Source: Planctomycetota bacterium (GTDB lineage Bacteria; Planctomycetota; Phycisphaerae; Phycisphaerales; SM1A02). From it: a stretch of DNA of 64,000 bases. How positions within the stretch are numbered: position 1 is the stretch's first letter; each line of letters begins with the position of its first letter. The translations under genes were made by a program, and so were the position numbers. Shown piece by piece: positions 9,963 through 42,560 of this stretch. The stretch spans positions 1-64,000 of the forward strand of contig JAAERN010000084.1 of the NCBI GenBank assembly GCA_024230295.1, given 5' to 3'. The notes below the pieces were generated by a model that saw nothing but the letters and a program-made list of their open reading frames with translations, ran no database searches and was not told where the DNA came from.

Positions 9963-11938
9963 TCCTTCACCTCACCGAACTCGGTCGATGCAAGGCCACC
10001 TGTGAGGGTGACTGGATCGTTGGAAGGCGGCACCTGAACCTGCTTCCCTTCTGCCTCTGCCTCGCCCTCCGGAATGGCCGGAGCGGGCGCGGGGCGCTGC
10101 CCCTGATCGAACTGCTCCTCCGGGGCGACGGGGTCAAGCGTGTCCGCTGGAATCATGTCCATCTCACGCAGAAGGATTCGGCGGCCGATATCACGCTCCC
10201 AGTGGCTCGATCGTTGTCCCGAAATCTGCTCCCTGAACCTGTGCATCTCCGGCTGCCCGAGGTCCTGACGCAGCGATGCATTGGCGTAGAAGAGCGCGAG
10301 ATCGAGTTCGCCATTGCGGTACGCCTGCAACGCATCATGGTTGTAGTTGGCAGTCATCTGATCGCGACTCCACGGAAGGAGTCCGCTTCGCACGCCAACA
10401 CGAACGGTGTCGATGATCTCCAAGCTGTCTTGGCCCATCTCATAGAGTTGCTCGTCCTGAAGGATTGTCGGCGTGAGCAGGAAGATGATTTCAACACGGT
10501 CGATATCGTCATCCTGACCACGAAAGGCACTTCCAAGCAGCGGAACATCGCCAAGCAGTGGAACCTGCTTCCGCGAGATGACACTCTTCTCCTGATAAAA
10601 ACCGCCTAAGACGATGGTCTCACCATCACGCACACGAACATTCGTAACGATGTTGTTGGTCGACTTGTCATTGACGGTGACTTCTGCGCCGTCAAAACCG
10701 TTGACCTTGCGCTGCGTCACACCCGAGAGGCCCGGATTGAGTTCCATGCGGATCATGTTGTTCGGCGAGATAAATGGCCTGAACACCAGTTCGATTCCGG
10801 ACGGGAGAAATTCCTGCGCTTGGGTCGTCGATGTATCGGTAACGGTCGACGTCAGATAGCCAACATCGAGACCGACATGAATTCTTGCTCGCTGTCGATT
10901 CAGGCACATCACTTTCGGCCGCGCCAGGATTGTGGTGTCGGTCACATCGTCAAGCGCGCGTATGAAGATCGAGAATCCATCCTTGATGAGTCCAAGTTTG
11001 AATGTTCCTTCACCCCCGCCGCCATTGTTGCCCTGCCCCGCCACGACATTGTTCGTCGGTGTCAGGCCATCAATGAGGTTTCCGACAAGACCGACTGGGC
11101 TGACCGGTTCACCCGATCCAGAAGCCCCAGTACCACCAATGAAGTCTGTGAAATTCATGCTCGTAACAAAGGAGAAGTCCACACCAAAGCCGTTTCGTTC
11201 CTTGACTGCTGCCTGCAAAATGGCCGACTCGACCTGCACTTGGGTTGGCGCGACATCGAGTTCCTTTATCGTCGTCGCAATTGCGTCAAGCTGCTCCTCG
11301 TAGTCGTTGACAACAAGTTTCGCGGAGAAGGCCCACGAGTCGCTGCCTCCACTTTCTATAGATGAATCGAATCCTGTTTCCACAGATCCAAGCGACACAA
11401 CCGTGCCGCTCTCACTCAAGATCGGGGTCGCAATCTTCTCGGCCGACTCGGCTGAGATGTAGAACAACTCATAGACTCTCGTCTCACGATTCCTTCTTGA
11501 TTCGAGAACCTGCTTAACGTACTCCTTGGGATGCACGTAAATGAAGTTGCCCTCTTCGATGGAAGCGCAATCACCCACCTCGAGCACAGCAGTCAGTGCT
11601 TCGTCAAAGCTCACGTCATAGAGATTGACGCTCACGGTCGCAGTGACATCTCGCCCGGCGAGAATATTGCGATGGGACACTTCGGAGAGCATCTCGAGGA
11701 TCTGTGTCAGGTCGATATCTCGGGCGTTGAGATTGAATGTTCCATATTCGGTTGCCGCCACATCGGCATTGCCGCCAGGCGATTCAACCTCGGCTGGAAC
11801 AGGTGTCTGCTCTTGAACAGACCCACCAGCGTCTTGAATATCGGACACATCGCCACCTTGCTCGTTTCCAAGCGCGGTAGAACAGCAGATCAACACGGCC
11901 AGCATCTGGGTGCGCATCGACGGTGGATATCGGTCCAT
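9959..11938 (-). CDS. Outer-membrane secretin (GspD/PilQ family)
   Basis: 659 aa outer-membrane channel protein. A signal peptide (about residues 8-24, MRTQMLAVLICCSTALG) precedes an acidic linker and an STN/N0-like domain (FNLNARDIDLTQILEMLSEV). Next come N-domain repeats (KIATPILSESGTVVSL) and the secretin core with the signature DGETIVLGGFYQEK, then VPLLGDVPLLGSAFR and an EIIFLLTPTI end strand. After the core comes an extra tail of about 150 residues with one TPR-like helix pair (HDALQAYRNGELDLALFYAN) and a Pro/Glu-rich end. That tail is longer than in classical PilQ and could bind the coupled TPR lipoprotein (inference). Confidence 0.94.
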   Translation of the reverse strand: MDRYPPSMRTQMLAVLICCSTALGNEQGGDVSDIQDAGGSVQEQTPVPAEVESPGGNADVAATEYGTFNLNARDIDLTQILEMLSEVSHRNILAGRDVTATVSVNLYDVSFDEALTAVLEVGDCASIEEGNFIYVHPKEYVKQVLESRRNRETRVYELFYISAESAEKIATPILSESGTVVSLGSVETGFDSSIESGGSDSWAFSAKLVVNDYEEQLDAIATTIKELDVAPTQVQVESAILQAAVKERNGFGVDFSFVTSMNFTDFIGGTGASGSGEPVSPVGLVGNLIDGLTPTNNVVAGQGNNGGGGEGTFKLGLIKDGFSIFIRALDDVTDTTILARPKVMCLNRQRARIHVGLDVGYLTSTVTDTSTTQAQEFLPSGIELVFRPFISPNNMIRMELNPGLSGVTQRKVNGFDGAEVTVNDKSTNNIVTNVRVRDGETIVLGGFYQEKSVISRKQVPLLGDVPLLGSAFRGQDDDIDRVEIIFLLTPTILQDEQLYEMGQDSLEIIDTVRVGVRSGLLPWSRDQMTANYNHDALQAYRNGELDLALFYANASLRQDLGQPEMHRFREQISGQRSSHWERDIGRRILLREMDMIPADTLDPVAPEEQFDQGQRPAPAPAIPEGEAEAEGKQVQVPPSNDPVTLTGGLASTEFGEVKE

Positions 11939-36193: not shown

Positions 36194-36283
36194 GAGCGAC
36201 CGAATCAGACCATAACCGCAGCCGTTCCCGTGAGAATATTGCCGCCCATGCCGCCTCGCGGCATCTGGTGAGGCACCGAGTAA

Positions 36284-36400
36284 ACAACTGGACGGCCCCA
36301 CGAGTGGGGCCGTCCAGTCGGAGAGAGAGGAGAGGCAATTGAGGGGGACGCTGTTTCCGCATCCGAATTGGACAACGCAGCAGACCCCAATGCCTTTCAC
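36284..36400 (-). ncRNA. Putative small RNA, copy A of a tandem pair
   Basis: Read on the minus strand, the element runs: GCGTTGTCC block, stem 1 (GGATGC ... GCGTCC, plus-strand 36346-36364, loop of seven), a CU-rich single-stranded stretch CTCTCCTCTCTCTCC, and a 13-bp terminator hairpin (arms 36287-36299 and 36306-36318) followed by TTGTTT. Stem 1 contains a U-G pair that closes only on the minus strand. The loops differ from copy B while the stems match. It lies between lipA and the CLC gene. No promoter could be named; a U-rich upstream stretch and GAAAGG are shared by both copies. Confidence 0.55.
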
Positions 36401-36466
36401 CGCAGAACGAAATAAGCCCTCCTGACCTCGAATCCAGCGTTTTTGGGCACCCCTCAAGCCATTGAA

Positions 36467-36582
36467 ACAACTGGACGGCCCCATTTGGGGGCCGTCCAGT
36501 CGGAGAGAGAGGAGAGAGTGTGTTGGGGACGCGTTCGTCGCATCCAACGAGGACAACGCCCACCACCACCCACCCTTTCAAC
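36467..36582 (-). ncRNA. Putative small RNA, copy B of a tandem pair
   Basis: Same architecture as copy A, with the hairpins 183 bases apart. Stem 1 covers plus-strand 36527-36545 (GGATGCG ... CGCGTCC, loop of five), followed on the minus strand by the same CU-rich tract, and a terminator hairpin with arms 36470-36482 and 36488-36500 and loop of five, then TTGTTT. Loop and linker sequences are almost unrelated to copy A, but stems and CU-rich tract are the same. The CU-rich tract is complementary to Shine-Dalgarno sequences. Reading frames across it are not protein-like. Confidence 0.55.
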
Positions 36583-36629: not shown

Positions 36630-38243
36630 ATGGCACGCACCACTGACAACTCACACTGTCCGACCGGAACCGCACCCGCTAAAACGTGGAGAGACCGCTT
36701 CTTCTCAAGAAAAGCCCTCCTCACGCAGCTCGTTCTGCTGCTCGCTGCCGCCCTGACCGGGGCGGTAGCACTGTATTTCAGGCAGGCCGACATTTTCGGC
36801 TCCGATCTGTTCCTCAGGCTCAACAAAATGGAGGAGTGCTGGGGTATTTCGCTGCCAGGGGGCACCGGGATCTGGCTTGCGGCGGCGTGGATCACCATCA
36901 GCATGGTCCTCATCTTGTGGCTCAGGGACCGCTACTTTCCCGGCACTGAAGGCACTGGCATTCCACAGGCAATCGCATGCCTCAAGGTGAAGGACAGCGA
37001 CTTTCGGCGGTACATGCTCTCGATACGCATCGCTCTGGGCAAGATTCTCCTTCTCACCATCGGACTGTTTGGAGGAATGACCATTGGTCGTGAGGGACCT
37101 TCGGTCCATGTTGGGGCATGCCTGATGTACCTCGCAACCAAGGTCCGCCAGTTCCCGGAACACCTTGTGCAACGAGGGCTCATTCTTGCTGGTGGTGGCG
37201 CCGGTATCGCCGCGGCTTTCAACGCTCCAATCGCGGGGATAATCTTCGCCTTCGAAGAGATCGGTCGATCATTCGAAAAGGACAATGCCAGCACGATCGT
37301 CCGTACGGTTCTGATCGCCTCCGCGGTCGTCATCGCAAGCCTTGGCTGGAACTATCTCTTCTACGGGCAGGTCTCGCACTCATTCGGATTCGATGCCATG
37401 CACTGGCTGGCAGTCGTCATCATTGGGGTCATCGGTGGGTTTCTTGGGGGCCTATTCGCCCGACTCGTGGTGTGGGGCACCCCCAAAGTGACTCAGGGGC
37501 TTACTCGCCACAAGTGGCTGACCGCAGCCGGGCTGGGGCTCGCGCTTGCAATCACCGGACTCCTGTCCGACGGCCAGAGTTATGGAAGTGGTTACCCACA
37601 GGCCCGTGCGATTCTCATGTACCGCGATACCGACTACTACGCGACACTCAAAATCGCCCAGCAGGCATCTATGGACGAGATCCATGAGGCCTATGCCAAG
37701 CTGGCCCATGCCCAGACGCTACTTGGAAATACAGGCGAAACGCTCGAATCAGCGTTGGAGTTGGAGCAGGCCTATCGAACACTTGCGAATCCGCGGGAGC
37801 GAGTGTTCTACGACGATTGGGTTGTTCCGGGACCCTCTCCCTGGTGGTATGCACCGGCCAAAGCGACGGGGTCGTTCTTCAGTTTGATCAGCGGAATCCC
37901 GGGCGGCTTGTTCGACCCAAGCCTCTCTGTTGGAGCCGGACTTGGGGACATCTTCGCCGATCTCTTCCACGATGTCTTCAATGACATGAGGCCGCAGTTT
38001 GTGATCATGCTCTTCATGGTGGCATACTTTGCGGGTGTCGTGCAGAGCCCAATCACCGTGTTCGTCATCATGATCGAAATGACAGATGCGAGGTTTGTGA
38101 CGATCCCGCTCATGCTCGCGGCGATCATCGCCTATGAATGCTCGTCGCTCATATGCACGACCTCGATTTATGAGGCGCTTGCCGAATTGTTCTTGGGCAA
38201 CGTCGAGCGGCGGTGTGGCGAAAAACCAAAACTCGCTGACTGA
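36630..38243 (+). CDS. CLC chloride channel/transporter with inserted degenerate J-domain
   Basis: 537 aa membrane protein. All three CLC anion-site motifs are present: GTGIPQA (residues about 109-115), GREGPSVHVG with the gating Glu (153-162) and GIPGGLFDPSLSVGAGLG (about 422-439). Between helix K/L and helix M lies a soluble stretch (residues 333-396) that reads as a J-domain: DTDYYATLKIAQQASMDEI, AYAKLAH and AYRTLANPRERVFYDD. The HPD tripeptide needed to activate DnaK is absent (HAQT in that place). No frameshift or gap marks the joint, so the fusion looks genuine. It stands downstream of the tandem RNA elements and upstream of a sigma factor gene. Confidence 0.9.
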   Translation: MARTTDNSHCPTGTAPAKTWRDRFFSRKALLTQLVLLLAAALTGAVALYFRQADIFGSDLFLRLNKMEECWGISLPGGTGIWLAAAWITISMVLILWLRDRYFPGTEGTGIPQAIACLKVKDSDFRRYMLSIRIALGKILLLTIGLFGGMTIGREGPSVHVGACLMYLATKVRQFPEHLVQRGLILAGGGAGIAAAFNAPIAGIIFAFEEIGRSFEKDNASTIVRTVLIASAVVIASLGWNYLFYGQVSHSFGFDAMHWLAVVIIGVIGGFLGGLFARLVVWGTPKVTQGLTRHKWLTAAGLGLALAITGLLSDGQSYGSGYPQARAILMYRDTDYYATLKIAQQASMDEIHEAYAKLAHAQTLLGNTGETLESALELEQAYRTLANPRERVFYDDWVVPGPSPWWYAPAKATGSFFSLISGIPGGLFDPSLSVGAGLGDIFADLFHDVFNDMRPQFVIMLFMVAYFAGVVQSPITVFVIMIEMTDARFVTIPLMLAAIIAYECSSLICTTSIYEALAELFLGNVERRCGEKPKLAD

Positions 38244-38307: not shown

Positions 38308-38343
38308 GTTCGCCGCCAAGAACCTCTTTTTTTTTTGGCGAAC
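38308..38343. terminator. Inverted repeat around a ten-T tract
   Basis: GTTCGCC (38308-38314) and GGCGAAC (38337-38343) flank a spacer that includes ten consecutive T (38327-38336). It lies 65 bases after the CLC stop and about 65 bases before the sigma factor start. The T-run fits a terminator for the CLC gene, but the hairpin before it is weak, so a regulatory site for the sigma gene is also possible. Confidence 0.4.
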
Positions 38344-38406
38344 CATTGGCATGTCTTTGGGCGTAGGTGGATCGCTGGCCCTCTCTGCCAGCCCCCAAAG
38401 ATACCC

Positions 38407-39240
38407 ATGAGCAAGACAATCACATCTGATCTCGACACCTACTTCCGCGACATCGCTCGCGTCGACTTGTTGGAACCCGCCGAAGAACGCGACCTCGCGT
38501 GGCGCGTCATCAACGATTCCTGCGGCGACGCGAAGTCACAGATGATTCAGGCGAACCTGCGACTCGTCGTCAGCATCGCAAAGCGGTATGCCTCTCGCGG
38601 CGTTCCGCTCGCTGACCTCATCAACGAGGGCAACGTCGGCCTCATTCGAGCCGTTGAACGATTTGATCCTGCACTGGGTCACCGATTCTCCACCTATGCA
38701 ACATGGTGGATTCGCAAGACCGTCAAACAACTCGTGGAAGAGGCGGGCCATCCAATGCACGTACCCACATACATGCGACACAGGATGGCGCGTTGGGGGG
38801 AAACACTTGTCGAATTGCAGGACAAACTCGGTCGCGCACCGACACCTGCTGAAATGGCCAAAGCCATGAGCGTCCCACGGTGCAAGTTAGATCTCATCCA
38901 TCGAACCATGGCGGCGACTCGAAGCGTGTCGTCCGGCCACAGCACACCGAGCGAAGGCCCTACAGCGGTAGACCTCCACCCCGAAGACCCTAAGGCACAC
39001 GCAGAGCATCGAGCGGAAAAACTGGATGACTACGAGAAGGTCCGCAACCTCCTCCTCAAGATGGACAGCCTTGACGCCAAGATTGTGTGCCTGAGATTCG
39101 GATTGGATGGTGGCTCGCCACGAACACTGAAAGAAACCGGACGAAGCGTCGGATTGACTCGGGAACGAGTGCGGCAAATCGAGCAGCGAGCCCTTGCGCA
39201 AATCCGAACCGCTTTCGAAGATCGCAGGCTTGCCGGGTAG
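38407..39240 (+). CDS. Sigma-70 family RNA polymerase sigma factor (alternative/stress type)
   Basis: 277 aa. It carries regions 1.2 ([20 protein letters not shown]), 2 ([12 protein letters not shown], then [19 protein letters not shown] and [15 protein letters not shown]), 3 ([14 protein letters not shown]) and 4 ([19 protein letters not shown]). The acidic region 1.1 of the housekeeping factor is missing, so it is a group 2/3 alternative sigma. The ATG at 38407 matches family starts; the upstream ribosome site is weak. The neighbours are HdeD and three Hsp20 genes, which suggests a heat or general stress factor; that role is inferred from context. Confidence 0.92.
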
Positions 39241-41256: not shown

Positions 41257-42240
41257 TCAGCAGGCGAGGCTGACCTCCCGGTTGAGCGTCTGCTCGACGG
41301 TGCCGACCTTCTTGGGCAGAACAATACTGAGAACGCCATTGACGATTCGAGCGGAGATATCAGTCATTTCGACGTCGCTACCGAGAACGAATTCGCGGCG
41401 AAGCGTTCGGGAGGATCGCTTTTCACGGACGATCGTTGACATACCGTTCTTCGATGAGGTCGATCGGCCGATGACAGCTTCGAGCACCAAGCGGCCATTC
41501 GTGGCGGTGATGTCGACATTCTCGATCGACACGCCAGGGAGGTCCGCTTCGATGATGTAAGCGCTGCCACCCTCAACGACATCCACGGGAATCGTGGCGT
41601 AGTCGCCGTAGGAATTCACGTCAGCTGCCAACTCGGTATCCAGCATGGAATCACCGTGCAGTTGGAGATTGCACGAGAGGGTCGCAATCTGACGAGCGGC
41701 CAGTACCGGGTTCATCTCTGCCGTCGCAGCAATGGCCAATGCTTGGCTCAGATTGACCTGAGCGAGCATGACGAGTTGACGAGCGAGAGCGAGGTCGATT
41801 GTTGCGACTCTGACGAGTTTGGCTGCGGTCCACGGGCATCCGCCGGCAACCTTGGAGAGGTTCGCGATGAACAACGGGTCGATGCTCGAGAGGCGAGTTG
41901 CCAGTTGGGCTGCCGCCGGATCGATCGCCGCGATTCGGTTCACGATGGCGTACGCCCCAATCGAGCCAAACATGCCAGCCGTGGAGAACGGTGTGTTCTG
42001 AATGTGTGGCATAGCCGAGAACGAGTTAACGGGCATCATCCCACCATTGATCGGGGAGGCATCGAAGCCGATACCAAGGCCCGTTGCCAGGGGTGACACG
42101 CCCATGCCTGTGGCGGCTATGCAATTGGCCATATCCAAGCCAGCGGCATCGAAGCGAGTTGAGGTGAAGCCGTTGTTGTTCCGGCTGGTGAAGGTGCTTT
42201 CGCAACCACGATTGTCTTTGACCTGTACTTTGATAGCCAT
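41257..42240 (-). CDS. Large Hsp20-domain protein with Ala/Ile-rich repeat N-terminus
   Basis: 327 aa, about twice the usual Hsp20 length. The alpha-crystallin domain lies at the C-terminus (about residues 215-320: DYATIPVDVVEGGSAYIIEA and DISARIVNGVLSIVLPKK). The first 90 residues are Gly/Met/Asn-rich. Residues 95-195 contain repeated units of about 18 residues with an IDPxxAxxL-type core (VNRIAAIDPAAAQLATRL, LSSIDPLFIANLSKV and VATIDLALARQLVML). I do not recognise this part. AAGGAG precedes the ATG. A strong terminator follows. The N-terminal part may drive oligomer assembly or bind a special client (inference). Confidence 0.88.
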   Translation of the reverse strand: MAIKVQVKDNRGCESTFTSRNNNGFTSTRFDAAGLDMANCIAATGMGVSPLATGLGIGFDASPINGGMMPVNSFSAMPHIQNTPFSTAGMFGSIGAYAIVNRIAAIDPAAAQLATRLSSIDPLFIANLSKVAGGCPWTAAKLVRVATIDLALARQLVMLAQVNLSQALAIAATAEMNPVLAARQIATLSCNLQLHGDSMLDTELAADVNSYGDYATIPVDVVEGGSAYIIEADLPGVSIENVDITATNGRLVLEAVIGRSTSSKNGMSTIVREKRSSRTLRREFVLGSDVEMTDISARIVNGVLSIVLPKKVGTVEQTLNREVSLAC

Positions 42241-42266
42241 TTTCGAGCTCCTTGAGGTTGAAGGCC

Positions 42267-42560
42267 TCAGAAAGCCGATACGCTCCCGCAACGCTGCGGG
42301 AAGACATCGGCATCCTGTGAAATAGAGCAAGCAGAATCACGATCGGCTCGCGGACAGTTGTCCTCGCCGATGGTGAACACACGGCCTCGCAGCCGAGCAG
42401 ATGTACTGCACAAGTCAGCAGCCGGGAGATCAGCCGTCATCTCAATCCACGTGGTAGGAACCAACGGCATCACCATGCTGGCGAGCTGTGTGGTGGCTTG
42501 TGCCTCCACCGTGTGGTTCCTTGTTGCCGTCTTCGCGTCGGTGTGCGTGTGGCGGATCAT
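42267..42560 (-). CDS. Possible small protein upstream of Hsp20 gene
   Basis: 97 codons, family not recognised. The ATG has GGGAG seven bases upstream and the stop lies 26 bases before the Hsp20 start, so an operon is possible. The sequence is mostly polar and Thr/Ala-rich (VEAQATTQLASMVMPLVPTT) with five Cys in the second half. No signal peptide or membrane helix. It could be a real leader-encoded protein or a chance reading frame in a long 5' region. Confidence 0.3.
   Translation of the reverse strand: MIRHTHTDAKTATRNHTVEAQATTQLASMVMPLVPTTWIEMTADLPAADLCSTSARLRGRVFTIGEDNCPRADRDSACSISQDADVFPQRCGSVSAF

Follow-up and report, generated by a model that had tools for sequence, protein, structure and literature searches.

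Small RNAs (sRNAs) may represent the repressor arm of an alternative sigma factor, as in the case of RybB and MicA, the Hfq-dependent sRNAs of the ECF factor sigma-E, whose seed lies at the 5' end. In Alphaproteobacteria, AbcR1 and AbcR2 (alpha-r15) are tandem homologous sRNAs located in one intergenic region and carrying CU-rich, unpaired anti-Shine-Dalgarno (anti-SD) motifs (PMC7143759, PMC3712013); in the alpha-r14/NfeR1/cuckoo RNAs, the anti-SD motif is ultraconserved and the stem sequences change (PMC10746234); CcsR1-4 are transcribed from promoters of the stress sigma factors RpoHI/RpoHII (PMC10253847); and the multicopy, stress-induced LhrC1-5 RNAs of Listeria use CU-rich sites that pair at SD sequences, binding their targets without Hfq (PMC4132741). 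Regulatory sRNAs of Planctomycetota are almost undescribed: a literature search found no study of them in this phylum, and the sRNA-by-phylum table of a review reports 8 for the whole PVC group (PMC9029176).

The locus described here lies in a stretch of 64,000 nucleotides (the window) from a member of Phycisphaerales (assembly GCA_024230295.1, contig JAAERN010000084.1). Judging from the DNA, its two related copies very probably make small RNAs of about 80 bases in this uncultured marine bacterium. With moderate confidence, we assign them to a Phycisphaerales family of anti-SD sRNAs driven by a stress sigma factor, in a genus without detectable Hfq; structure, strand, promoter conservation, clc/sigma synteny and the absent Hfq match were obtained by sequence analysis.

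Organization of the Two Putative sRNA Genes

The two copies were delimited by blastn at positions 36282-36377 (copy A) and 36465-36558 (copy B), both on the minus strand and with a mutual identity of 80%. The predicted RNAs span 36282..36364 (copy A, 83 nt) and 36465..36545 (copy B, 81 nt), and are thus shorter than the 90-130 nt transcripts expected in the preliminary description of this locus, which had otherwise read the pair correctly as two minus-strand copies sharing one plan (stem, CU tract, and terminator). Indeed, in copy B the order from the inferred start is a 5' stem-loop, a short linker, CTCTCTCCTCTCTCTCC, a 15-bp hairpin, and TTT. The 5' stem, described beforehand as 6-7 bp long with unrelated loops, is 6 bp in copy A (GGATGC-GGAAACA-GCGTCC, 36346..36364, minus strand) and 7 bp in copy B (GGATGCG-ACGAA-CGCGTCC, 36527..36545, minus strand), and its U-G pair does close on the minus strand only, being A.C on the other one. 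The 15-base CU stretch corresponds to CTCTCCTCTCTCTCC (copy A, 36320..36334, minus strand), whose 15 nt are identical in the two copies and which reaches 17 nt in copy B (36502..36518, minus strand). The 13-bp terminator stem ACTGGACGGCCCC/GGGGCCGTCCAGT is extended to 15 bp by G.U and C-G pairs and then followed by TTT (copy A, 36282..36320; copy B, 36465..36502; both minus strand), the loops differing between the copies and TTGTTT following the hairpin in both, as previously noticed.

When compared with shuffled sequences, the minus strand yields fold z-scores of -5.5 and -6.1 versus -3.9 and -3.6 for the plus strand, and the predicted probability of remaining unpaired is 0.79-0.96 for the CU tract. 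We rejected the idea that such a tract is a general feature preceding terminators: in 468 kb of this genome, a sample including the stretch that was fetched on account of the second-family locus described below, it lies immediately 5' of just 4 of the 38 terminator-like hairpins (copies A and B, the second-family locus, and one at an Hsp20 gene) and occurs at about 0.1% of random positions.

Conservation and Compensatory Changes

Homologous DNA was found in all the 8 other genomes of the genus (9/9 with this one), always beside clc and, wherever the contig extends enough, with lipA on the far side of the sRNA. Two copies are present in G000 and G001 and a single one in the remaining genomes. 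A covariance model of the kind proposed in the preliminary description was trained on 7 copies and recovered at full length, with 64-101 bits, the four that had been held out (those of G003, G004, and G008, and copy A of G001); it matches copy B with 106.6 bits, copy A with 100.1 bits, and the copy A orthologue of G001 with 85.1 bits. Across 11 copies, in an alignment that was fitted to the structure, although the hairpins are visible in every unaligned sequence, 98.3% of the cells pair and 8 of the 22 pairs are altered on both sides (shuffle mean 1.4; none of 500 shuffles reaches that value). This is not the pattern of a sequence kept with its pairing lost, which had been indicated as the outcome speaking against an RNA. 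The changes on both sides include UG, UA, and AU at one position of stem 1, CG->UA and GC->AU within the same stem, and, in the terminator (5 of its 15 pairs), GC/CG and CG/GC flips; sliding the partner by 1-3 columns lowers pairing to 29-49%. Loops and linkers vary, and hardly any variation is seen in the CU tract and in CGACTG.

This comparison also bears on the idea that the minus-strand frames encode a repeat peptide. Open frames of 131 and 192 aa do span the region; against this, the copies and their relatives differ by indels of 1-2 nt, the stems carry compensatory changes, and a conserved terminator falls within the frame, so that we regard a coding function as having a negligible probability. 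In Rfam 15, no family matches the window at its gathering score, and the homologous loci give chance-level matches at most (best E 0.076, far below the cut-off).

Predicted Promoter, Strand, and Ends

A putative promoter, absent from the preliminary description as was the sigma gene discussed below, precedes each copy: a -35 motif TTGAAAG (36575..36581) and a -10 motif GTTGTC (36552..36557), 17 nt past it, for copy B, and a -35 motif GTGAAAG (36394..36400) and a -10 motif GTTGTC (36371..36376) for copy A, all on the minus strand. Indeed, every copy of the genus is preceded by (T/C)GAAAG, 17 bases (18 in G008) that are not conserved, and GTTGTC, and TGAAAG/CGAAAG is also kept in other genera. 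In the genus copies, 5-7 variable bases separate GTTGTC from the 5' stem, and it is this gap that places the start of the sRNA.

The exact GAAAG-N17-GTTGTC sequence occurs in this genome at copies A and B only. The promoter plus CU pattern matches 13 of 181 genomes of the family (genera g1, g19, and g61), with none in a reversed control; in a public genome set, 11 of its 19 matches fall in Phycisphaerales, Phycisphaerae, or Planctomycetota MAGs, the others being near the number estimated for chance. The motif, the 17-nt spacer, and the downstream stem recur in g1, g61, g19, and g8; the g50 loci have no clear GAAAG/GTTGTC promoter, despite the presence of both the RNA and the sigma gene. The T tail is weak (TTGTTT) in the genus copies, and a run of T5-T8 follows the hairpin in g61, g5, g8, and g50. 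Since the promoter is conserved and the hairpins of relatives are T-tailed, the strand and the boundaries of the predicted sRNA genes can be considered well supported; together with the conserved synteny, this is in agreement with the minus-strand reading originally proposed.

A wider regulon for GAAAG-N17-GTTGTC was considered and rejected, the further matches in the genus being about as frequent as those of the reversed control. A degenerate promoter scan of the window gave results near chance, and no conserved promoter match was found upstream of the sigma and Hsp20 genes. No matching promoter was detected in G317, G215, and G054, which lie outside the family and within the same order; in two of them, from another family of that order (loci L210 of G317 and L211 of G215), a CU tract is followed by a T-tailed hairpin.

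One might argue that the hairpins are simply terminators or insulators between lipA and clc, with the CU tract serving as a Rho-loading element and the locus having no function in trans. Both copies are convergent to lipA, and the tract is a CU-rich, G-poor stretch such as those typical of rut sites. However, the RNA has its own conserved promoter, its 5' stem covaries, intrinsic T tails are found in relatives, few terminator-like hairpins are preceded by a CU tract (see above), and in G175 (genus g61), the RNA remains with clc, lipA being located elsewhere. For these reasons, we consider this explanation very improbable.

The Gene Neighborhood and a Linked Sigma Factor

The neighbours of the two copies are lipA, clc, a sigma-70 factor gene, three Hsp20 (heat-shock) genes, and a DUF308/HdeD-like gene; the specialised sigma factor is the likely switch of the predicted sRNA family. 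The steadiest synteny partner is the divergent ClC chloride channel gene (36630..38243, plus strand; Pfam PF00654). In its product, a DnaJ J-domain is inserted at residues ~335-395, and homologues from other genera align on either side of the insert and not across it. The gene at 38335..39240 (plus strand) codes for a group-2 sigma-70 factor (Pfam regions 1.2, 2, 3, and 4), the candidate cognate sigma. It lies beside clc wherever the RNA sits opposite clc (g1, g61, g50, g5, and g8), and this pairing persists also where lipA is found at another place; neither is present at the clc loci examined in g3, g60, g14, and in G087 and G090 of g19. The sample is small and its members are related, and the co-occurrence should therefore be taken as descriptive.

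Region 4.2 of the linked factor is canonical (TRERVRQIE) and fits a TTGAAA-like -35, whereas region 2.4 reads IRKTxK versus IRQAIT in the RpoD of this genome. In E. coli, residues Q437 and T440 of sigma70 read the -12 base; the corresponding positions are K in every orthologue of the linked sigma readable there, Q/T in the RpoD of this genome, and Q/K in its other group-2 sigma, and the -10 of the sRNAs begins with G or A, not T. The combination of a canonical region 4.2 and an altered region 2.4 would thus fit the unusual promoter, and we infer that the linked group-2 sigma probably reads GAAAG-N17-GTTGTC.

It is also conceivable that the sRNAs are as proposed and that an unlinked ECF-type factor drives them, the neighbouring group-2 sigma being a bystander in a stress island. 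ECF promoters such as the SigW-type one (TGAAAC-N16-CGTA) are likewise similar to GAAAG-N17-GTTGTC, and g19 has a clear promoter and an RNA near lipA and clc, with no sigma gene within the fetched flanks. This possibility is weakened by the fact that five genera have both the RNA and the sigma at clc and the loci of four others have neither, and by the combination, in the linked factor, of changed -12-contacting residues and canonical -35-contacting ones; hence, we deem it rather unlikely, though it deserves attention, and we retain the linked sigma as the probable reader.

A Possible Anti-Shine-Dalgarno Function

The predicted unpaired tract of copy B (P 0.94), near-invariant in the 11 copies, is complementary to SD sequences, and the locus combines it with a predicted promoter of its own, an intrinsic terminator, and a structure under selection. 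The SD words used at -14 to -10 in the start regions here are AGGAG, AAGGAG, and AGGAGA, and the UCUCCU of the tract complements AGGAGA, an enriched SD word. In a permutation test based on crude first-ATG starts and covering 17% of the genome, the preference for start regions over coding sequence was 1.49 kcal/mol for the tract versus 1.17 for CU permutations, only 4 of 300 of which discriminate as well; as for the absolute pairing energy at start regions, 240 of the 300 are at least as strong as the tract. The earlier proposal of anti-SD sRNAs stands as regards minus-strand sRNAs, and the anti-SD action is compatible with the data and mildly supported by the order of the tract. The likeliest mechanism would be translational repression via SD occlusion, a reading that we favour with moderate confidence.

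The main rival is that the sRNA is real and independent, and that the partner of its CU tract is not an SD sequence but a protein (a pyrimidine-tract-binding protein or Rho) or a further RNA (a GA-rich sponge or decoy). In favour of this view, the CU repeat is near-perfect and kept as a block, the absolute pairing of the tract at start regions is no better than that of permutations, and a search for extended complementary sites (11-mers) revealed no conserved target, most matches being antisense to sRNAs or to other CU tracts. On the other hand, the order of its bases outperforms 296 of 300 permutations in telling start regions from coding sequence, and CTCCTCC, which is closer still to an anti-SD sequence, forms the end of the tract in g61, g5, g8, and g50. 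Such a role thus seems unlikely, and SD occlusion remains our preferred reading. A search of the 9 genus genomes for Hfq gave no match, the control working as expected.

Other CU Tracts

A second family with CU tracts was found in this genome (contig C32 of G000, 11028-11128, minus strand; L062), in three further genomes of the genus, and in g61 and g50 (L063, L065, L066, L071, L076, and L078). Its plan comprises one or more 5' stems, one to three CU tracts, a CCACCACCGG..GGTGG terminator, and a T run; its promoter, (G)CAAACAC plus CGTAGT, is unlike GAAAG/GTTGTC. A dUTPase-like frame lies near these loci in three genera, and tandem or near copies occur in G099 and G175. A strict pattern search retrieved it in 3 genomes only, whereas the covariance-model loci show the family clearly. 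We read it as the same kind of RNA, presumably under another regulator.

A CU tract plus hairpin had also been reported next to an Hsp20 gene. The tract, CCTTCCTCTCTCC, does exist at ~41.23 kb; since orthologues retain the terminator and not the tract, its membership in the family was dismissed. Two further observations concern the Hsp20 genes. The 5' UTR of the first one (~42240-42330, minus strand) contains a CCGATGTCTTCCCGC..GCGGGGGCGTATCGG-type hairpin kept in most genomes of the genus, possibly an RNA thermometer or a stability element. Between the first and the second gene (~41105, minus strand), there is a sigma-54-like promoter, TTGGCACGCC-N-TTGC (here TTGGCATGCCAGTTGC), kept in several genomes of the genus and with repeated TTGGCAG motifs upstream. 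Lastly, at L125 (G001:C18), L143 (G006:C138), L064 (G004:C24), and L067 (G003:C209), a CU tract and a terminator lie 3' of protein genes, whose products, by eye, have GroEL-like and TypA-like C-termini; these may possibly represent 3'-UTR-derived relatives.

A Proposed Model and Comparison with Known Systems

In the model that we propose, each copy would be a self-standing minus-strand sRNA gene, and the adjacent group-2 stress sigma would probably read its dedicated TGAAAG-N17-GTTGTC promoter. Transcription would start at the 5' stem and end at the strong hairpin, giving an RNA of ~80 nt in which the CU tract would stay exposed and unpaired, with a hairpin on either side. This tract may then pair, without Hfq, with the AGGAG/AGGAGA-type SDs of several mRNAs, blocking ribosome binding; the 5' stem would protect one end of the RNA and the long terminator the other. 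The steps that we infer are the expression of the RNA, its control by the sigma, the pairing with targets, and the repression of their translation. A bolder version, which we advance tentatively, is that a group-2 sigma whose reading of the -10 is re-coded drives an Hfq-free anti-SD sRNA of its own as a stress repressor arm, and that the second family, with the same architecture and a different promoter, reflects a CU-tract module plugged into several sigma regulons.

If the model is correct, a conserved anti-SD family tied to a sigma factor by synteny and promoter would offer a concrete, testable stress-sigma repressor arm beyond the model phyla; with Hfq undetectable in the genus, it would also be a well-delimited setting in which to study how CU-tract sRNAs locate their targets without that protein.

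Which of the known systems does this locus resemble? Like AbcR1/AbcR2, it consists of tandem homologous copies with a CU-rich tract predicted to be unpaired. However, AbcR RNAs are 114-120 nt long, have three stem-loops and two anti-SD motifs, bind Hfq, and are LysR-regulated, whereas the copies described here are ~80 nt long, with two hairpins, one tract, and a sigma-type promoter, in a genus with no Hfq match. A conserved CU tract with stems varying in sequence is shared with the alpha-r14/NfeR1/cuckoo RNAs; alpha-r14, though, has three hairpins with CCUCCUCCC in their unpaired parts, and here a single CUCUCUCCUCUCUCUCC lies in the linker between two hairpins, with no CCUCCUCCC. The CcsR/CIN1 RNAs, with their RpoH promoter, are co-transcribed with and processed from a DUF1127 mRNA; here there is one gene per RNA, each copy with its own promoter, and no DUF1127 partner was noted among the neighbours. 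The presence of more than one copy, the CU-rich putative SD-pairing site, the proposed link to stress, and the proposed target binding without Hfq recall LhrC1-5, which belong to Firmicutes, are LisRK-regulated, and have three UCCC sites, one of them in the terminator loop; no sequence relation to them was found. Lastly, RybB and MicA have their seed at the 5' end, where the sRNAs described here have a hairpin. By analogy, these RNAs would work like AbcR, alpha-r14/NfeR1, and LhrC, and they depart from the structural definitions of AbcR and alpha-r14 that were tested; we would class them as a new family within a known kind, the sigma linkage and the undetectable Hfq being its unusual parts.
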